Shown in pieces: positions 1 through 6,460 of a stretch of DNA of 6,460 nucleotides. This DNA is from Anaerolineales bacterium (lineage in GTDB: Bacteria > Chloroflexota > Anaerolineae > Promineifilales > Promineifilaceae): contig JAGQGA010000320.1 in the NCBI GenBank assembly GCA_020432595.1, positions 1 through 6,460 of the forward strand, given 5' to 3'. How positions within the stretch are numbered: position 1 is the stretch's first letter; every line of letters starts with the position of its first letter. A program made the position numbers and the translations under genes. The notes beneath the pieces were generated by a model. It saw nothing but the letters and a program-made list of their open reading frames with translations, did no database searches and had not been told where the DNA came from.

Positions 1-1076
1 GCAAGCTGCTGATCACGGCTGCGGGACCACTGTTGGGTTGAGGCGCAGCTACGGCTGCAAACGCCGGTTTCGCGCTGGCTTCTGCTGACCAGGAAGGAGT
101 TGCCACATACCTCACACTGCTTGTGTAGGTATAGCTGCCCATCAATGATTTCGCAGTCATAACCCTGTTCGCTGTAGTTGTGGTATGTTTGCACCACACG
201 AGGATCGGCCTCAATGTGGTCAAATCCACTTTCTAGAGCCGCCCATTTTGCTAAACCAATGATGCCACCTAGGTGAGCCTTCCGCCATTGGCTGAAGGTT
301 TGCGGCAGTCCCTTGGCCTGGGCATATTGCTGCCAATCTTTTTGGGAGAAGCGGCGACCGAGTTGTTGGGTGAGGGTGAGGGCATGTTGTTTGAGTTGCT
401 GATGGGTGATGCCGGAATAACGGCCGTTTTTCACCCCACTCACCGCCATAGACATATTTTGCTTATACGATGCCCACTGTTCCTCACTCCACTCAGTGGC
501 GGCGCGTACCATTGGATTGTTTTCACCACGCATCGTTGCACCATGCAGCATGTCGTGGGTTTCTTTTGGCAAGATTTCCAAATTGTTAGGCGCATTGTTG
601 CTGGCATCAAAATCCTTGTGGTGTACCACGTAGCCACTCGGAATCTCAGTATCATGGTGGAAAGCGGCGACAAGCCGATGTTCAGCCTCGTTTTGCCGCT
701 GGCCGTTGTTGACCCACACATAATCCTGCGAACGGGCATCGGCCTCCACAAAAATATCCTTGATAGATGCCTTGTAGCGGGTCATAACATGCAGACTATC
801 GCCCGGCTGTAAATTTTCTGCCGCCACATATTCACCCGTTTTTAGGCGGAATTTGTGATTGCCCGTCACGGTAATGGCCGAGCCATCATCAAGCTTGACT
901 TTGAAAATGGGCTGCTGATGCCCCGTAACGCGAGGATGGCGCAGCCAGCGCACCGCAACCTTGCCCCGATTGTCCAGGCAATAAACAGGAACATCCTTGC
1001 CCTCTGCTGCCAGTTGAGCAATAGGAACGTGGCCGCGCCCATCAGCAACTGCCACCAGCACGTCACCCGTGACGCA
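1..1076 (-). mobile_element. Intein with HNH homing endonuclease inside nrdJ (C-terminal part outside window)
   Basis: The intein starts at Cys471 of the precursor with CVTGDVLVAV, a typical class 1 splicing block A. Block B is TVTGNHKF, with the catalytic TxxH histidine at precursor residue 544 (intein residue 74). After YKASIKDIF comes an HNH nuclease: EHRLVAAF at 602-609, VVHHKDFD with His622/His623, NNLEIL with Asn634/635, and ETHDMLH with His644/His648. A helical region with FSQKDWQQYAQAKGLP and a RKAHLGG motif follows and may bind DNA. Next comes a zinc ribbon, CEVC at 791-794 and CSRSC at 810-814. At least 358 residues are visible. The C-terminal splice blocks (histidine-asparagine followed by the +1 cysteine) lie beyond the left edge, so splicing competence cannot be judged. 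The insertion point before the radical cysteine of a reductase is a known type of intein site. Confidence 0.9.
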
Positions 1077-2486
1077 GGGGTTGGTGCCAAATTCGGCGGC
1101 GGCGCGGCGGGCGGGGCGGTTGTCTACGGCGGCGCGGCGGTTGAAGATGCCGGGTTCGCCCCGCCCCGATTCCACCATGTCGAGGACAAAGCGGGTGACT
1201 TCGGTTTGGGTTAGCTCCCGTTCCGGCCATACGGCCGAATTATTGGCATTCCACCGCTGGCTGTTGGTGTGCCAAAAGTCGCCATCTTTGCAGTGGCGCA
1301 TTTCCAAATCGTCATAATCAAAGAGCGATATCATTGCTGTCCTGCGCACGCCCCCGGAAACGGCGGCATCGCCAACGGAACACATGATGTCATGGGCATC
1401 GAGCGGGCGCAGGAAGCCGCCTTGCCGCGCCAAAATGCGGGTGCGGGCAAAGTCGAGCATTTTCCGCAGCGGTTCGGGGCCAGAGGCGCGGCCTCCTTTG
1501 ATTTGCAGGGGAGCACCTGCCGGCCGTACTTCGCTGTAATCAAACGCTACGTCCTCGCCGTTGAACCAAGCTGTTAGGCCGATGCGGACAGCCTGCGCCC
1601 ACCCTTCGGAGGAGTCGGGGACGACAAAGATGGTGGGTGGGTTGCCTTTTTGCCGGGCGATGCGGGGGAACTGCTCAACATAGCGGCGTTCGACGGAGAA
1701 GCCAACGCCGCAGCCGCTCATGGAAATAATAAGTGCTTCAACAAATGAATCGAGGCTGTTGACCGGCATGTAGGAGCAGTTGTAGACGGCGATGTTGTTG
1801 CGGCGGGCGGCGGGGCCGGCCATTGCCAGCAGCCGCATGGAGGGCATCGCTTTCATATTGAGGATGCCTTGGTGGATGCGTTCATAAACGGCCGTTTCCA
1901 ACCGATCCTCCGACAACTCCCGCAAATAATCAACCGCCCGATCCACCGTTTCAATCCACGTTTCCCGCCGCCCCACGTCATAATTGAAGCGGGAATACTT
2001 ATCGTAAAATTGAAATTTTTGCAGTTGCGTGGGGAAGTATTGGTCAGAAGCCGCAAACGCCTCGCGCACCTCATCGGGAATGGGGCGCAGCACGCGCATT
2101 TTGGCGTGTTCGGCGCGGTAGAGAATGTAATGTTTCGCCGCCTCATACTCACCGGCCGCCTGCAGCACCATCTCCACAATGTCTTGAACCCCTTCCACAG
2201 TGGGGAGATCGTATTTAGCAGCGACCACGTTGACGACGCGGTGGGCAATTTCGCTGGCGGGCGTATGTGGCTCCGTTGGCAGGCTGGCGTAACATTTTAG
2301 CAGTGCCTTTTCAATCAGATCCATGTTAAACGGCACAATGCGCCCGTCCCGCTTGATAATGCTTTCCGGCATTTTGACGCGGAAATAGATGCTGTCGGCG
2401 GTGAGATTACTCTTACCATTTTTACTACCTATTTTGTTACTAACTTCTTGTAAAACTACTCCTGAAACCTTTGCAAGACTTGTCAC
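1..2486 (-). CDS. nrdJ: Adenosylcobalamin-dependent (class II) ribonucleotide reductase, intein-containing, 3' end outside window
   Basis: This enzyme reduces ribonucleotides to deoxyribonucleotides in the cytoplasm using adenosylcobalamin as radical source. 828 codons are visible and the frame is open to the left edge. Residues about 42-130 form an ATP-cone (IIKRDGRIVPFN), the allosteric ATP/dATP site. The catalytic barrel follows. It has the conserved cysteine 237 in YNCSYMP, the stretch GCGVGFSVERRY, and the signature RPAGAPLQIKGGRASGPEPL, which points to the RTPR branch (triphosphate reductase). The N-extein stops at GTNP (residue 470), just before the family's NPCGE radical-cysteine motif, and an intein begins at Cys471. 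The start is GTG at 2486, preceded by a strong GAGGAGGAG ribosome site; no in-frame ATG occurs until residue 39. The first 30 or so codons are much richer in A+T than the rest. The C-intein and C-extein lie outside the window. Substrate level (di- or triphosphate) is less certain than the class. Confidence 0.93.
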   Translation of the reverse strand, partial: MTSLAKVSGVVLQEVSNKIGSKNGKSNLTADSIYFRVKMPESIIKRDGRIVPFNMDLIEKALLKCYASLPTEPHTPASEIAHRVVNVVAAKYDLPTVEGVQDIVEMVLQAAGEYEAAKHYILYRAEHAKMRVLRPIPDEVREAFAASDQYFPTQLQKFQFYDKYSRFNYDVGRRETWIETVDRAVDYLRELSEDRLETAVYERIHQGILNMKAMPSMRLLAMAGPAARRNNIAVYNCSYMPVNSLDSFVEALIISMSGCGVGFSVERRYVEQFPRIARQKGNPPTIFVVPDSSEGWAQAVRIGLTAWFNGEDVAFDYSEVRPAGAPLQIKGGRASGPEPLRKMLDFARTRILARQGGFLRPLDAHDIMCSVGDAAVSGGVRRTAMISLFDYDDLEMRHCKDGDFWHTNSQRWNANNSAVWPERELTQTEVTRFVLDMVESGRGEPGIFNRRAAVDNRPARRAAAEFGTNPCVTGDVLVAVADGRGHVPIAQLAAEGKDVPVYCLDNRGKVAVRWLRHPRVTGHQQPIFKVKLDDGSAITVTGNHKFRLKTGEYVAAENLQPGDSLHVMTRYKASIKDIFVEADARSQDYVWVNNGQRQNEAEHRLVAAFHHDTEIPSGYVVHHKDFDASNNAPNNLEILPKETHDMLHGATMRGENNPMVRAATEWSEEQWASYKQNMSMAVSGVKNGRYSGITHQQLKQHALTLTQQLGRRFSQKDWQQYAQAKGLPQTFSQWRKAHLGGIIGLAKWAALESGFDHIEADPRVVQTYHNYSEQGYDCEIIDGQLYLHKQCEVCGNSFLVSRSQRETGVCSRSCASTQQWSRSRDQQL

Positions 2487-2552
2487 TTTCTCCTCCTCAA
2501 TCTTTGTACGTGAATAACATAATGTGACAACTCAAAACAACCAATTAATAGC

Positions 2553-2637
2553 TATACTCGATGCAATTTGAAGAAACCCAGGGCTTTTCGATACCTATTA
2601 GACAACAAAGCACAGGTTTCATTCTAATTTGAGTATA
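2553..2637 (-). promoter_or_regulatory. Foldable RNA segment in the nrdJ 5' leader
   Basis: Three nested helices can form: TATACTC (2553-2559) with GAGTATA (2631-2637); GAAACC (2573-2578) with GGTTTC (2615-2620); GCTTT (2583-2587) with AAAGC (2607-2611). The segment lies 67 bases upstream of the nrdJ start and would be in its leader if transcription starts near 2700. I see no B12 box or other riboswitch signature. AT-rich DNA yields such pairings by chance, so this is a candidate only, and the strand is assumed from the gene order. Confidence 0.3.
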
Positions 2638-2651
2638 AATGCCATGAATGT

Positions 2652-2672
2652 TTCTCAAGATACACTTGAGAA
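2652..2672. repeat. Perfect 8-bp hairpin in the nrdJ leader
   Basis: TTCTCAAG (2652-2659) and CTTGAGAA (2665-2672) are perfect inverted repeats around the 5-base loop ATACA. No T-run follows on either strand, so it is not a Rho-independent terminator. It could be an operator or an RNA hairpin in the nrdJ leader. No function can be assigned. Confidence 0.45.
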
Positions 2673-2707
2673 TTAAAAGTTGCTGCATTCTTCAAAGAAA
2701 ATTGCTT

Positions 2708-2735
2708 ATTAATTTGCTGCTTTAAACATTGTCAA
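2708..2735 (-). promoter_or_regulatory. Possible sigma-70 promoter for nrdJ
   Basis: On the minus strand a consensus -35 TTGACA (2735-2730) is followed 16 bases later by ATTAAT (2713-2708), a 4-of-6 match to the -10 box. Spacings of 17 or 18 give weaker boxes. Transcription would start near 2700 and give a leader of about 215 bases. The good -35 and poor -10 make this uncertain. It matters because the cassette upstream would otherwise separate nrdJ from the nrdR promoter. Confidence 0.35.
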
Positions 2736-2759
2736 CTATCATAATAAATTGAGGAGTTA

Positions 2760-2785
2760 AATAGGGAGGTTTTAACCTCCCTATT
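2760..2785. repeat. Perfect 10-bp inverted repeat, possible weak terminator
   Basis: AATAGGGAGG (2760-2769) and CCTCCCTATT (2776-2785) pair perfectly around TTTTAA. It lies 115 bases past the stop codon of the Cas2-like gene and could end that transcript. The minus-strand flank (TTTAACTCCTC) and the plus-strand flank (CTTCTTCTG) are only moderately T-rich, so termination in either direction is uncertain. Confidence 0.5.
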
Positions 2786-2862
2786 CTTCTTCTGTGTAGT
2801 AAGGCTACTTCATCATTAGCTATCTAAGTTACGACCCTGGCAGGAACTACTTGGAGAGTTAT

Positions 2863-2884
2863 AAGGAGGTAGCCTCTTTTTTTT
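2863..2884 (+). terminator. Rho-independent terminator facing the plus strand
   Basis: AAGGAGG (2863-2869), loop TAG and CCTCTTT (2873-2879) form a 7-bp stem with one G-T pair. A run of eight T (2877-2884) overlaps its end. An alternative long-range helix, AGGCTAC (2802-2808) with GTAGCCT (2869-2875), ends at the same T-run and excludes the local stem. No plus-strand gene precedes it in the window, which suggests a short non-coding transcript. Confidence 0.6.
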
Positions 2885-2900
2885 GTAGTTATAATTATTT

Positions 2901-3191
2901 CTACATTGCATGATATTCCCTTTGGAACGAATCCTTTAGCCACTCTGAACATTGTTTCTCAAATCCTTGCCATGCTGCTTCACCGCTAAGGCATGCGACC
3001 AACAATTTGTCATTTTTGTCTATTTTGGTTATTAGCCTATCCCGAATATGAACAGCAGATAAGTTAGTTGCTACTAGCCAACTGGAGTCTAAGCAGTGCC
3101 ACCATGAGCCAAGAGACTTGATTTCAATAAATAAGCCTGTGTAATTTTGACCCGGTGAATTAAGGTCATAACTAATACTGTAAACTTGCAT
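2901..3191 (-). CDS. Stand-alone Cas2-like small protein ('SinR family')
   Basis: A 96-residue protein with the pattern of the small family often labelled 'SinR family protein', which has a Cas2/VapD-like ferredoxin fold. It has a beta strand VYSISYDL with Asp9 where Cas2 has its conserved aspartate, then a helix NYTGLFIEIKSLG, the family hallmark SLGSWWHCLDSSWLV, a second helix SAVHIRDRLITKI, a strand KLLVACLSGEAAW, and a C-terminal SEWLKDSF helix. Length is normal for the family. The start is clear: AGAAGGA lies 7 bases before ATG. It is the last gene of an apparent minus-strand operon, 19 bases after the 39-residue peptide gene. No CRISPR repeats, cas1 or effector genes are in the window, so adaptation is not implied. 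Biochemical activity of this family is not known to me. Assignment rests on remembered family patterns, not on a search. Confidence 0.75.
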   Translation of the reverse strand: MQVYSISYDLNSPGQNYTGLFIEIKSLGSWWHCLDSSWLVATNLSAVHIRDRLITKIDKNDKLLVACLSGEAAWQGFEKQCSEWLKDSFQREYHAM

Positions 3192-3210
3192 TTTTTTTCC
3201 TTCTTAGAAT

Positions 3211-3330
3211 TTAATTAGGTGTAGAACGACGGTGAGGCTTAACAGGAACCGTTTTTTTGTTACCGCCTGGTGGACGTCGCTTGTGCGTCTTTACAGGAAC
3301 AATTTTTTTGCCTTGTTGTGTTTTTGCCAT
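3211..3330 (-). CDS. 39-residue basic repeat peptide (short gene)
   Basis: A short gene begins at ATG 3330, 6 bases after a perfect AAGGAGG ribosome site, one of the best in the window. The 39-residue product is made of two similar units, KKIVPVKTHKRRPPGGN and KKTVPVKPHRRSTPN. Each has the pattern K-K-x-V-P-V-K-x-H-(K/R)-R. It is very basic (Lys, Arg, His), proline-containing, without acidic residues, membrane segment or signal peptide. It could bind nucleic acid or an acidic partner; that is inference. It ends 19 bases before the Cas2-like gene on the same strand, which suggests co-transcription and coupled function. I do not recognise a named family. The strong ribosome site and the protein-level repeat argue that it is a real gene. 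Confidence 0.7.
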   Translation of the reverse strand: MAKTQQGKKIVPVKTHKRRPPGGNKKTVPVKPHRRSTPN

Positions 3331-3354
3331 TTTTTACCTCCTTTTAATTAGATT

Positions 3355-3486
3355 TCTGCAACTGTATGATGTTTTGATAAGCCGACGCATTAACTTTATG
3401 TCATGCTCACCTTCATGGTCATGGAATTCACAACGAAAACAGATGCTCATGAAGGTGAGCATGACATGAATTAATACAGTTGCAGA
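3355..3486. repeat. 132-bp palindromic (MITE-like or foldback) element
   Basis: The ends are 13-bp perfect inverted repeats, TCTGCAACTGTAT (3355-3367) and its complement (3474-3486). Inside is a 20-bp perfect inverted repeat, ATGTCATGCTCACCTTCATG (3398-3417), matched at 3448-3467. It extends outward with one bulged base to 3389 and 3475. A further 7-bp hairpin, ATGCTCA/TGAGCAT (3443-3462), lies in the right arm. The element holds no gene. It sits between the 54- and 39-residue peptide genes, 25 bases upstream of the start codon of the latter. No clear target duplication is visible. The GTCATGCTC...AGATGCTC wording resembles short dispersed palindromes found between genes in many bacteria. As RNA it would fold into a strong hairpin that could attenuate or process the operon transcript. 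Confidence 0.8.
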
Positions 3487-3494
3487 TTGCTTAA

Positions 3495-3659
3495 CTATTG
3501 GGAATCTTGCGTTTGTTTTGTTTGCGTTCTTTTAGCAATTACTATATTTGAAGGTGGCAGCGGTGGGGGTGGTGGCGGGACATACCCCCGAATATGTGAT
3601 GGGGTTTCGGTAGTAGAGGTTTTGTTTGATTGAACTACCTGTTTACTGTTGTTTTTCAT
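3495..3659 (-). CDS. 54-residue proline-rich peptide (short gene)
   Basis: A short gene starts at ATG 3659, only 6 bases after the stop codon of the membrane-protein gene, and ends with TAG at 3495. The product is 54 residues. A Ser/Thr/Asn/Gln-rich N-terminal third is followed by a centre RGYVPPPPPPLPPS (residues 24-37) and a basic, Thr/Gln-rich tail. It has no signal peptide or membrane segment and is probably disordered. The ribosome site is weak (GGGATAAG), so translation is likely coupled to the upstream gene. A GYVPP-type polyproline segment suggests a protein-binding ligand, perhaps for the membrane partner; this is inference. I do not recognise a named family. The close spacing, the matching strand and an amino acid pattern unlike random translation support it as a gene. 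Confidence 0.6.
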   Translation of the reverse strand: MKNNSKQVVQSNKTSTTETPSHIRGYVPPPPPPLPPSNIVIAKRTQTKQTQDSQ

Positions 3660-3665
3660 AATTAC

Positions 3666-4070
3666 TTATCCCAAATTGTAAAATACAAAAATACTTATTG
3701 TTACTACACCAATGAAAAAGAACAAACCGCTAAATAAATTAAAGGCTTTTGTAAACCAGCTATAAATACCGCCCGGGGTTTGGTTATATATTTTTCCTTC
3801 ATTAATTTGCAATAGTGTTTTTCTAAGAGCATTACTACTCATCCATAAAGAAAAAAGAACGAAAGAGATACTAATGCCCCAAGCTATCCACGCAATAATC
3901 AAATAATGCGAATACAATACAGGATTTGTCCCAATTATTTCTCTGATGAATGTGAAAGAAAGCCCTAAACTTCCACCAGATAAATACAAAACGTTTTTGT
4001 CATATTCCTCTTGAGCCTTTTGTTCAGCTGCCATAATCTGGCGCCTATACTCCTGCAATGACTCATTCAT
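3666..4070 (-). CDS. Small three-helix membrane protein of unknown function
   Basis: This 134-residue protein has an N-terminal charged helix (residues 1-24, LQEYRRQIMAAEQKAQEEYD), then a DKNVLYLSGGSLGLSFTFI segment (24-42) that is hydrophobic and glycine-rich. A strong membrane helix follows at about 57-77 (LIIAWIAWGISISFVLFSLW), then a polar loop at 79-104 and a last membrane helix at about 111-131. The YDK-x-x-L-x-L-SGGSLGLSF motif recalls uncharacterised small membrane proteins in accessory regions; I cannot name the family. ATG 4070 lies 22 bases past the nrdR stop codon with a modest AGAAG site, so it is probably co-transcribed with nrdR. It starts a four-gene AT-rich cassette with the proline-rich peptide, the basic peptide and the Cas2-like protein. 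A role as membrane effector or sensor is possible but not shown. Confidence 0.8.
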   Translation of the reverse strand: MNESLQEYRRQIMAAEQKAQEEYDKNVLYLSGGSLGLSFTFIREIIGTNPVLYSHYLIIAWIAWGISISFVLFSLWMSSNALRKTLLQINEGKIYNQTPGGIYSWFTKAFNLFSGLFFFIGVVTISIFVFYNLG

Positions 4071-4092
4071 AGTATTCTTCTGGCTTGATTAT

Positions 4093-4542
4093 TTACTCGC
4101 TCAACAAATGGTCAATTTCGCCGCGAATAGATTCCAGATCGTCGAGCCGCAGGTAAACGATGGCATAACGAATATAGGCCACCTCGTCCAGCTCCTTCAG
4201 CTTGCTGATGACGAGATCGCCCACAAAGCGGCTTTTGACTTCCGCGCGGCCAAGCTGCTGGAGTTCAGCTTCCACTTCGCCCACAATGCGCTCAATATCG
4301 GCGGCGGCAATAGGGCGCTTGTAACACGCTACGCGCAGTCCGGCCAGCAATTTTTCCCGCGAAAATTCCTCACGGGTGTTGTCCCGCTTGATGAGGAGGG
4401 GGGTGGATAAAATCGGCCGTTCGTAGGAGCTAAAACGTTGGTCGCAGGTGTCACAGACGCGACGGCGGCGCGTGCCGCCGCGCAGATCGTGACTGGTGTC
4501 TATGACGCGGGTCTTTTCATGACCACAGTAAGGACATTTCAC
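4093..4542 (-). CDS. nrdR: Transcriptional repressor NrdR
   Basis: NrdR is a zinc-dependent repressor that senses ATP and dATP and shuts off ribonucleotide reductase genes. The 149-residue length is normal. The zinc ribbon has CPYC (Cys3, Cys6) and CDTC (Cys31, Cys34), with the typical RRRRVCDTCDQRFSSYER stretch. The ATP-cone covers about residues 47-137 (LLIKRDNTREEFSREKL through VAYIRYAIVYLRLDDL). The start codon is GTG at 4542, since no ATG precedes the conserved KCPYCG. An AAGGGA ribosome site lies about 9 bases upstream. Its likely target nrdJ is on the same strand, about 1.6 kb downstream. A promoter with two NrdR-like boxes precedes it, so it probably regulates itself. Confidence 0.97.
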   Translation of the reverse strand: MKCPYCGHEKTRVIDTSHDLRGGTRRRRVCDTCDQRFSSYERPILSTPLLIKRDNTREEFSREKLLAGLRVACYKRPIAAADIERIVGEVEAELQQLGRAEVKSRFVGDLVISKLKELDEVAYIRYAIVYLRLDDLESIRGEIDHLLSE

Positions 4543-4612
4543 AATAAATTTCCCTTTCTCTTACATAATTTACCCAAGCAACAAAACAAGACAGACCATG
4601 TCCTGAAATTTT

Positions 4613-4659
4613 GTGCTATATGTTGGGCAATGATACTGCTGATCCCCCATATATGGCAT
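4613..4659 (-). promoter_or_regulatory. Tandem NrdR-like operator boxes upstream of nrdR
   Basis: Two 10-base cores match the NrdR box core CWATATATWG: CTATATGTTG at 4616-4625 (9 of 10) and CCATATATGG at 4647-4656 (8 of 10, a perfect palindrome). Their centres are 31 bp apart, about three helical turns, and taking 16-bp boxes the gap is 15 bp. This agrees with the paired-box spacing known for NrdR operators. The outer flanks match poorly. They lie just downstream of the -10 box, where repressor binding would block transcription. Confidence 0.65.
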
Positions 4660-4669
4660 AACGGGTGGC

Positions 4670-4698
4670 ATTATAGCATGGCACGTTTGTTCTGACAA
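4670..4698 (-). promoter_or_regulatory. Sigma-70 promoter of nrdR
   Basis: On the minus strand, TTGTCA (4698-4693, 5 of 6 to consensus) is separated by 17 bases from a perfect TATAAT (4675-4670). Transcription should begin near 4663 and give a leader of about 120 bases to nrdR. It is the best promoter in the window and may drive nrdR and the four cassette genes behind it. Confidence 0.75.
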
Positions 4699-4895
4699 GT
4701 GAAATAGAAAGTGAAAAACCTTAAAATTTTTAACGGCCGTTTTCCCCCTATAACCAAACTATAACGAAAACCGCGCTTTTTTTTCTTGGTCGATTTGTTA
4801 AAATTTTGTGCGAGAGCATCTATTCCGTAGCGGAAGTTATAAAAATCACATACTGAACATAATAGGTTTGATGAAGCCAAGGAGCACGATTCAAG
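4699..4895. other. Intergenic region before the surface-protein gene
   Basis: This completes the divergent region between nrdR and the plus-strand gene. It contains one AACGGCCGTT palindrome (4732-4741), a T-run near 4777-4784, and a 5-bp hairpin TTCCG-TAG-CGGAA (4823-4835). I found no convincing plus-strand promoter; several TATAAA-like boxes lack a -35 partner at proper spacing. Confidence 0.4.
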
Positions 4896-5852
4896 ATGAA
4901 ACAAAGCAGCGCTATTCACCGATGGTTTGTGGTTATATGGGTAGGATTATTAACGGCCGTTTTTCCCACCCAACCTACTTTCGCCCACGGTGGCATCACC
5001 GCCGATGGCAGTGCCAGTGATTGGGCCAACTTAGGCAATGGAAGCTGCCCCTCAGCACCCAGTGCCAACACGGGCGCGGTCATTGACGGTAGCCACACTG
5101 ACTGCGGTTTGGGTGTTAATGGGGGGACTGAGTGGGTTTGGACTGATGCGACTGGCGACCAACGCACCGATCATTGGGGTAGCACAGGCAACATGGATAT
5201 AACCCAAGTCCGTATTACCGGTGATGCGACCAACCTCAATTTTCTACTCCGCTTTAGCGACATTACCAACTGCAATGCCCAATATATCGCCATTGGCATC
5301 AACAGCAACGATGGTAGCGGCACAACGTTTTTCCCAGATAATGCTGACACTGGTTTAGGGGCTTTCGGCAGCGGTTATGAGCGGGTGATTGAAGCAAACC
5401 TCAATACAACGGGTTATTGGAGTGATAACTCAACCTTTACCTCCTCATTGCAAAGTAATTGCAGCGCCAGTGAGAATCTATGGGAGATTCAAATGCCGAT
5501 TTCCGCTCTAGGGCTGACCTGGCCGGCCGCGTCTGGCACCTACGATTTTGCTATTGCTGTTTTTTGCCACGACAGTGGGGGCGGTATTTGCGATGTGGGT
5601 GGCAGCAGCGACGCGATGGATGTGGTAACGTCTACCAGCGGCAACACATGGAACGAAGTTAGCGATGGTTCACTCGATTACAACTTTACGATGGGGTTTG
5701 GCCCAACGGCCGTTAATCTCCAAACCCTCACCGCCCAGCCCGCCGCCAACACCCTCACCATCATTGCCGTTGCCCTTGTTTTGCTGCTGGGGGGAATAAC
5801 GGCCGTTTTCCACACCAAAAACAAAAAAGGCCAGCATCACGCCAGCCTTTAA
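4896..5852 (+). CDS. Secreted, C-terminally membrane-anchored surface protein of unknown function
   Basis: The 318-residue protein has a signal peptide (residues 1-30, hydrophobic WFVVIWVGLLTAVF, likely cut after TFA), an exported domain, a membrane helix at about 286-305 (NTLTIIAVALVLLLGGITAV) and a basic tail (HTKNKK). The ectodomain begins ITADGSASDWANLG, a pattern seen at the start of beta-sandwich, CBM9/DOMON-like surface domains, and is rich in Gly, Ser, Thr, Asn and Asp. It has six cysteines (51, 70, 126, 189, 224, 232), enough for three disulfides. The topology implies an extracellular domain held at the membrane; a sugar- or ligand-binding role is only inference. ATG 4896 follows AAGGAG by 11 bases. 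It is transcribed against both neighbours, so it is its own unit, inserted between ftsZ and nrdR. Three AACGGCCGTT copies lie within it, each read as Thr-Ala-Val. Confidence 0.85.
   Translation: MKQSSAIHRWFVVIWVGLLTAVFPTQPTFAHGGITADGSASDWANLGNGSCPSAPSANTGAVIDGSHTDCGLGVNGGTEWVWTDATGDQRTDHWGSTGNMDITQVRITGDATNLNFLLRFSDITNCNAQYIAIGINSNDGSGTTFFPDNADTGLGAFGSGYERVIEANLNTTGYWSDNSTFTSSLQSNCSASENLWEIQMPISALGLTWPAASGTYDFAIAVFCHDSGGGICDVGGSSDAMDVVTSTSGNTWNEVSDGSLDYNFTMGFGPTAVNLQTLTAQPAANTLTIIAVALVLLLGGITAVFHTKNKKGQHHASL
5815..5850 (-). terminator. Rho-independent terminator of ftsZ
   Basis: Read on the minus strand, AAAGGCTGGC (5850-5841), loop GTGAT and GCTGGCCTTT (5835-5826) form a 10-bp stem with two G-T pairs. 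The T-rich tract TTTTTTGTTTTT follows. It lies about 75 bases past the ftsZ stop and wholly within the last codons of the convergent surface-protein gene. The plus strand has no T-run after it, so it serves ftsZ only. Confidence 0.8.
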
Positions 5853-5858
5853 AACACA

Positions 5859-5913
5859 ATTAGAGATTGGAGATTGGAAACCGGTTAATCTCCAATCTCT
5901 AATCTCCAATCTC
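5859..5913. repeat. 17-bp inverted repeat with 14-bp tandem unit between convergent genes
   Basis: ATTAGAGATTGGAGATT (5859-5875) is perfectly inverted at 5887-5903 around an 11-base loop. The right arm also begins a tandem direct repeat, TAATCTCCAATCTC at 5886-5899 and again at 5900-5913. It fills the gap between the two convergent stop codons. No T-run follows, so it is not a normal terminator. It may be a dispersed intergenic repeat or protect RNA 3' ends. Confidence 0.75.
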
Positions 5914-5923
5914 CCAATTTTCC

Positions 5924-6460
5924 TCACTCTCCCCGCTTCTTCCGCAAAAACGCCGGAATATCCAAATCATTCACCCGATACGCCGGGGGTTCTGGCGTTT
6001 CACGGCGCACGGGTGGGGTTGTTGGCCGAGTTGAGGTAGATGATACCGATGCCGATTCTCGCACGGGCGGCCGGCTGGCAACCTGCCGCGCCTGCGGCCG
6101 CGTCATCTGCCGCATCATCGGCAAACTATGCTCAAATCCCGTCGCAATCACCGTAATCCGAATCTCATCCCCCATCGTTTCATCAACCACCGCCCCAAAA
6201 ATCAAATTCACATCGGGGTGTGCCGTCTCCCGAATCAATGCCGCCGCCTGGTTAATCTCATACAAGCTCAAATCCTTGCCGCCCGTCACGTTAAACAAAA
6301 TGCCTTTTGCCCCGTCAATCGTCACATCCAGCAGATGGCTCGATAATGCCGCTTGGGCTGCATCCATTGCCCGGTTGTCTCCCTTGCCCTTGCCCACCGC
6401 CATCAAGGCTGCCCCACCCATAGACATGATCGTTTGCACATCAGCAAAATCTAGGTTGAT
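5924..6460 (-). CDS. ftsZ: Cell division protein FtsZ, C-terminal part (5' end outside window)
   Basis: FtsZ is the tubulin-like GTPase that polymerises into the division ring at mid-cell. The 178 visible residues begin INLDFADVQTIMSMGGAALM, the conserved end of the GTPase domain, and continue through the C-terminal subdomain (AQAALSSHLL, GAKGILFNVTGG, NLIFGAVVDETMGDEIRITV). A variable Pro/Ser/Thr/Arg-rich linker follows (about residues 118-160). The end is the conserved tail peptide LDIPAFLRKKRGE, which binds membrane tethers such as FtsA or SepF. The GTP-binding N-terminal half with the GGGTG(T/S)G loop is outside the window. The frame is open to the right edge, so the GTG at 6439 is internal, not a start. 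A terminator follows within the convergent gene. Confidence 0.96.
   Translation of the reverse strand: MNLDFADVQTIMSMGGAALMAVGKGKGDNRAMDAAQAALSSHLLDVTIDGAKGILFNVTGGKDLSLYEINQAAALIRETAHPDVNLIFGAVVDETMGDEIRITVIATGFEHSLPMMRQMTRPQARQVASRPPVRESASVSSTSTRPTTPPVRRETPEPPAYRVNDLDIPAFLRKKRGE

Follow-up and report, generated by a model that had tools for sequence, protein, structure and literature searches.

A membrane protein–peptide pair and a neighbouring Cas2-like gene at the nrdR–nrdJ junction of an Anaerolineales bacterium

In the 6,460-nucleotide stretch of Anaerolineales DNA analysed here, referred to throughout as the window, four small genes lie between nrdR and a gene for a ribonucleotide reductase. 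The locus raises the questions of whether these genes form one system, how they came to lie at this site and what they might do.

Layout of the locus and its genomic site

All four genes are on the minus strand. The upstream flank is nrdR (4093..4542, minus strand; TIGR00244, E 3.5e-46), and 22 nt separate it from the first gene, M (3666..4070), which encodes a 134-residue three-helix membrane protein of an undescribed family. P (3495..3659) follows 6 nt past the M stop and encodes a disordered-looking peptide of 54 residues with a RGYVPPPPPPLPP motif. A distance of 164 nt separates P from a gene for a basic peptide of 39 residues (3211..3330; phrog_21154, E 4e-06), and 19 nt further on is the gene for a 96-residue small protein of the Cas2/VapD fold, of a SinR-like family (2901..3191; phrog_1090, E 1.9e-26). 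The downstream flank is nrdJ, an adenosylcobalamin-dependent reductase gene with an intein (3..2486, minus strand), which runs off the window. By reading, AGGAGG precedes the start of the 39-residue peptide and AAGGA that of the Cas2-like protein; the start of P is preceded only by a weak GGGA. A promoter scan gave a number of matches that was not above chance.

Within the 164-nt gap is a 132-bp element (3355..3486) with perfect 13-bp terminal inverted repeats (3355-3367 and 3474-3486) and an internal hairpin of -59 kcal/mol (z -8.64). It looks like a MITE or REP-type repeat, and was not found in the viral contigs searched. The first-pass annotation had described four minus-strand genes in tight order; the four open reading frames were confirmed at the positions and lengths given above and all are intact, but the order is not tight throughout, and the "four-gene cassette" is two tight pairs split by the MITE-like element. 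An 11-bp inverted repeat, AATAGGGAGGTT/AACCTCCCTATT, at 2760-2785 between the Cas2-like gene and nrdJ is a possible terminator closing the cassette.

The four genes have a GC content of 34-43%, compared with 56-57% in nrdR, the measured part of nrdJ and ftsZ, and the corresponding GC3 values are 28-38% and 62-66%. This agrees with the earlier claim that they are more A+T-rich than these three genes. The same annotation took the composition to suggest transfer. The intergenic DNA, including the gap upstream of nrdR, is equally AT-rich at 34-37% GC, and composition alone is therefore weak evidence of transfer.

The site was also compared with that of other Chloroflexota. nrdR was searched for in 251 genomes with a match in 222, and the best 30 of these 222 loci were read. 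A ribonucleotide reductase gene lies close downstream in 29 of the 30; in 28 the reductase is the longest of the ORFs that start in the 1.2 kb following nrdR, and 24 of these 28 start within 126 nt. The relatives' reductases were called by comparison with four reference ORFs, with Pfam confirming L040 and L051, and that of L037 by tblastn; tblastn with the window nrdJ as query missed most of them. In the window the separation of nrdR and nrdJ is 1,606 nt. The one exception among the 30 is the closest nrdR (L028/L064, 79%), where there is no match to a reductase in the 15 kb fetched. Downstream of nrdR in L064, the usual place of the reductase is taken by a PIN-domain gene together with one for a reverse transcriptase akin to those of defence systems.

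The junction is thus disturbed in the window and, since it is disturbed in L028/L064 as well, transfer of DNA at this site is likely; the position downstream of nrdR may be an insertion hot spot. The window reductase is of the TIGR02505 kind (E 2e-41, under the cut-off of that model, the gene being incomplete), with ATP-cone, intein_Nterm and HNH_3 domains, and most relatives have another class II type. As the subfamily differs, the locus does not show a clean insertion into a site that is orthologous in other respects. The comparison of spacing in relatives that had been proposed at the outset gives a close pairing of nrdR and reductase. At 3-1076 (minus strand) of the window, nrdJ has the intein, which carries the HNH_3 endonuclease domain and is inserted after ...EFGTNPC. 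In another genome (L062/L069, 30-1606), of the same class as the Acidobacteria record G005, a distant M-family gene lies directly 3' of the C-terminus of a ribonucleotide reductase, beside a reductase as in the window.

M and the short peptide encoded with it

A search with the single M sequence found 5 proteins only, while a profile search found at least 626 homologues (7,995 candidates scored, 120 matches listed). Window M had no match above chance level in the copies of Pfam, NCBIfam and PADLOC searched. Of 64 members of the family none matched a PADLOC model at E<=0.01, and against Pfam at the same threshold there was no SLATT, S-2TM or S-4TM family among the 13 families listed; such matches as there were are sporadic and weak, to DUF4064 in two members and to each of the other 12 families in one. 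The AlphaFold model, built from 64 sequences with a pLDDT of 88, has three long helices (residues 3-46, 54-91 and 102-133), in line with the three-helix membrane protein initially read from the sequence. A Foldseek search with this model found nothing resembling it among solved structures, the best E being 3.5.

M was found in one plasmid record and one phage record, and in none of the viral contigs searched. Across samples of genomes the family is patchy, with 4/400, 6/369, 2/149, 4/229, 1/80, 1/20 and 3/100 positive, where the counts include the seed genomes, the sets overlap and the cut-offs range from 1e-5 to 1e-15. Eight loci from a pattern scan, together with profile searches of genome samples, gave 19 distinct relatives. 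Three of these (L017, L021 and L023) have no tblastn match to the window M and are known by profile only, and the assignment of L025 is uncertain as its M-family match lies within a much longer open frame. In L008 the M gene (10001-10398) is split over two reading frames; this copy may be broken by decay, or misassembled.

When these relatives were inspected by eye, 18 of the 19 were seen to have a short ORF for a peptide poor in hydrophobic residues, overlapping the end of M or 3' of it and on the same strand. The sole miss, L015, ends at a contig edge 66 bases after M. The peptides have 26-107 residues, of which 2-24% are strongly hydrophobic, and start between -231 and +12 nt from the M stop in relatives down to a profile E of 2e-12; that of L021 starts at +10 nt. 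For 15 of the 18, a stretch of purines is compatible with a permissively defined ribosome-binding pattern. A few of the peptides, especially those of distant relatives, may be chance ORFs, L025 and L063 being the least convincing.

An automated test was also used, which counted an ORF within 420 nt as positive if six or more prolines fell inside a stretch of 12 residues, and for which 87 other genes from the M loci served as controls. Such a proline-rich ORF lies behind M in 12 of the 19 loci compared with 4 of the 87 control genes (Fisher p 3e-8); it is present in 8 of the 9 closest relatives and 4 of the 10 distant ones. Requiring seven prolines gave 9/19 against 1/87, with 2/10 for the distant relatives. 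Two other counts were dropped: a simple count of downstream ORFs (5/12 vs 4/135) because it missed nested and overlapping peptides, and one of 11/12 vs 8/107 because the loci had been partly picked for a visible peptide, for which reason it was redone on all 19 relatives. With both the inspection and the automated test pointing the same way, the combination of a membrane protein and a very small partner peptide, one part of the build described in the first-pass annotation, holds well beyond this locus, and the M–P arrangement is very probably recurrent across bacterial phyla. The literature searched held no description of the pair, and the string GYVPPPPP was in no paper.

In many of the peptides a motif can be read in which G or S is followed by an aromatic or small residue and then by at least one proline; it is often repeated inside one peptide, its conservation having been judged by eye. 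The window P has RGYVPPPPPP. Among the relatives, L001 has EEGYIPPPPKP and ERGYVPPPPPKP, L008 has ERGYRPPPPPP and DGGYRPPPPPP, and NRGYEPPPPPP, EKGFVPPKPPP and TEGYTPPPPP are found in L003, L007 and L016, respectively. The motifs of distant peptides are of the type EGAIPPK and DGAVPPK in L021, and SATIPVM and SATIPTM in L020. Runs of 4-8 prolines occur in the window and, among the 9 closest relatives, in six (L001, L003, L005, L006, L008 and L019). In a Xanthomonas homologue of M (P0115) a GYEPPPPKRK tail is in the same reading frame as M; this may reflect either a gene fusion or a frameshift where two genes overlap.

The Cas2-like pair and its relation to M–P

The 39-residue peptide is basic, with a net charge of +12 by hand count, and contains two VPVK...R units. 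It is 59% identical to a 42-residue peptide of Marinitoga camini viruses 1 and 2, and these two viruses and phrog_21154 were the only relatives found; the plasmids searched gave no match. There is no Cas2-like gene near the Marinitoga virus peptide in the 3.6 and 5.1 kb fetched.

Proteins of the phrog_1090 kind, to which the Cas2-like protein belongs, are annotated as SinR or Cas2 in some phage records. Its predicted model (pLDDT 82) matches Cas2 structures best, which is consistent with its original description as Cas2-like, and also GhoS, VapD and BPSL1038, with no Foldseek match below E 0.001. Residues D9 and S36 do not vary among 21 aligned sequences, and a catalytic role for the conserved aspartate is described for Cas2/VapD homologues in the text available from two papers (PMC11980593, PMC10491678). 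A role as a CRISPR adaptation protein was rejected, there being no array among the repeats of 2480-4700 and no Cas1 among the scanned proteins of the 6.46-kb window. The protein was not found in the viral contigs searched.

Elsewhere, 79 plasmid and 42 phage records contain Cas2-like genes, and 18 loci were fetched from these. By eye, a small basic peptide is encoded upstream of the Cas2-like gene in 4 of the 18 (L012, L080, L081 and L082), of which L080, L081 and L082 are related enterobacterial plasmids. A criterion of charge only also admits unrelated upstream ORFs in L073, L075, L077 and L078, and the pairing may be no more frequent than chance. The basic peptides before the plasmid genes are of two kinds, the RPYITVKGKRITRPNGG and GHRxGAVKxRS types, with L082 having both. 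On a 4.15-kb Klebsiella plasmid (L076, 13-810) a 72-residue protein, ribbon-helix-helix-like by eye, a 100-residue membrane protein and the Cas2-like protein are encoded in tandem with 3-nt gaps. That membrane protein gene, next to the Cas2-like gene, was found in one plasmid record only.

Taken with the layout, the best reading of the locus is of two small modules side by side, M–P and the basic peptide with the Cas2-like protein (module 2), both of them probably acquired. Alternatively, the four genes could be one system, with the Cas2-fold and membrane proteins acting jointly as effectors and the two peptides as their regulators. In keeping with this, a protein 76% identical to M (P0002) and one 79% identical to the Cas2-like protein (P0007), with the same lengths as the window proteins, each have a single contig as their source, 1,644 nt in length and so long enough to hold the cassette. 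They are probably on one shared contig, and would then be one independent case of both modules together. The Klebsiella plasmid likewise has a membrane protein gene, though a different one, 3 nt before the Cas2-like gene. Set against this are the inverted-repeat element between the pairs and the lack of a match to the Cas2-like protein in eight M-bearing genomes at E<=1e-3, in a search without a positive control, or in the 13 M loci read. A search of 301 Chloroflexota genomes at E<=1e-8, also without a positive control, gave no match either. We therefore consider a single four-gene system quite improbable and retain the two-module reading. The count of neighbours that had been suggested as a check separates in the same way: M and P recur together, and the quartet does not repeatedly co-occur save for the 1,644-nt contigs of P0002 and P0007.

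Possible functions of the two modules

Thirteen of the M–P loci (L001-L008 and L065-L069, with L003 and L004 cut by contig ends) were read further, and PADLOC was run on a selection of 16 neighbouring proteins. Defence-type genes lie beside M–P in 5 of the 13, a raw count with no background rate. In L007 and L008 a Pycsar pair is upstream, with PycC cyclases (E 1e-99 and 1e-101) and a PycTM in both. In L004 M–P follows a BsuBI/PstI-type restriction-modification pair, in L003 a TIR-AAA protein (PDC-S59, E 1e-13) is encoded one ORF downstream and in L017 a DrmD-like helicase directly downstream. The other 8 loci have no recognised defence neighbour; neighbours of other kinds include an SbcCD-like pair (L016/L065, by eye), a SpoIIE phosphatase (L006), a DUF3800 protein (L001) and a PAAR-AHH toxin (L019), while the rest have no neighbour that was recognised. 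In L067 (1503-3214, reverse complement) M–P is directly upstream of a gene for a PAAR-like/AHH nuclease toxin. The link of M–P to defence genes is suggestive only, and we would put a defence role for the pair at about an even chance. Of the likeness to conflict systems noted by the first-pass annotation, the recurrence of M–P, the Cas2 fold and these defence neighbours remain, and the idea of the four genes acting as one such system is not supported.

The best single proposal for the mechanism, to which we give a somewhat less than even chance, is that of a defence-type locus where M is a membrane effector that P either restrains or clusters. M–P would be a two-gene operon, with M a three-helix inner-membrane effector and P a dedicated disordered partner touching it by means of short, frequently repeated motifs of the G-[YF]-x-PP type. 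This contact would hold M inactive or cluster it, and infection or damage would alter the contact such that M perturbs the membrane. Module 2 would be a VapX/VapD-like pair of a small basic peptide and a Cas2-fold nuclease. We infer, then, that M may harm the membrane, that P may bind M, that the 39-residue peptide may be an antitoxin and that the role may be in phage defence. A broader version, in which M–P is a widespread unrecognised class of two-gene immune effector, with a disordered multivalent peptide of the G-x-(V/I)-P-P type gating M and the pair acting by itself or joined to Pycsar, restriction or TIR systems, seems to us unlikely.

Other explanations of M–P have to be weighed against this. 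The pair could have no part in immunity and be a membrane complex of a housekeeping-like or stress-linked kind, P being a structural subunit and the defence neighbours reflecting general islands of transferred genes. The 8 of 13 loci with no recognised defence neighbour would fit this; however, the very patchy occurrence within phyla and the two separate junctions with Pycsar fit immunity genes better than core physiology, and we regard the explanation as doubtful. P might instead be a translation sensor, its proline run stalling ribosomes when EF-P or translation is impaired, with loss of P freeing or inducing its neighbours. The runs of prolines in the window and most of its closest relatives would suit such a role, as would the sequence RAPP in an L007 peptide, RAPP being of a type that the abstract of PMC12992588 names for arrest peptides of bacteria. 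However, the distant partners keep the motif with few consecutive prolines (SATIPVM and GAIPPK in L020-L022) and P is downstream of M, unlike a leader peptide, which makes a sensor very unlikely. It is similarly hard to credit that the locus is passive transferred DNA, its genes being relics with no current joint function: the AT-rich composition and the MITE-like insert might be expected of such DNA, but the four frames are intact and the homologues at 76% and 79% have kept their lengths.

Of the known systems, Pycsar is similar to M–P in having a small membrane effector, and the two loci mentioned above adjoin complete Pycsar pairs. The window differs in that there is no cyclase among the seven proteins of its 6.46 kb scanned with Pfam or the four scanned with PADLOC, and no partner peptide with a proline motif is mentioned for Pycsar in the text available from PMC11224242. 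That M is itself a PycTM was considered and rejected, with no PADLOC match in the 64 members and an hhalign probability of 0.5% against a two-sequence PycTM alignment. S-2TM-beta effectors such as Cap15/OptE are likewise short membrane effectors with a partner gene, in the portion of the Panoptes paper available (PMC12657218); M differs in having three helices and no beta-barrel sensor domain, and there is no nucleotide synthase partner in the window.

For module 2 the VapX/VapD arrangement, which it resembles, is the nearest model. The VapX gene lies upstream of the VapD gene, and by analogy the 39-residue peptide, whose gene is 19 nt upstream, may be the antitoxin of the Cas2-fold protein. 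VapX-VapD and VapY/VapW share a Cas2-like ferredoxin fold, a conserved aspartate and an adjoining small partner gene, as far as the available text goes (PMC11980593), and of these VapD-type features module 2 has the ferredoxin fold, as predicted by the model, and the aspartate, D9 of the alignment. It differs in that the 39-residue peptide is tiny and highly basic, and probably too short for the SH3 barrel reported in the same text. The BPSL1038 subfamily of Cas2/VapD nucleases is comparable in that its Cas2-fold protein stands by itself, apart from CRISPR, and is matched by both Foldseek and VIA, but the identity is 8-11% over the aligned part and the D(X20)SST spacing reported in the text available from PMC10491678 is absent here.

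M has hundreds of members with no model in the copies of Pfam, NCBIfam and PADLOC searched, and a peptide gene is alongside nearly everywhere that was read; gene callers readily overlook peptides as small as P. Should P control M by way of a short linear motif, this would be a bacterial case of a membrane effector gated by a motif peptide, and M–P would be a further component worth looking for near Pycsar and other systems of immunity.

Two kinds of repeat were also seen in the window. The palindrome ACGGCCGT is absent from 2901-4070 and occurs at 420, 1888, 4733, 4953, 5706 and 5799, six times against 0.08 expected. Short repeats of the GATTGGAGATTGG kind, some direct and some inverted, were read by eye at 5860-5925, between a plus-strand ORF (4896-5852) and ftsZ.
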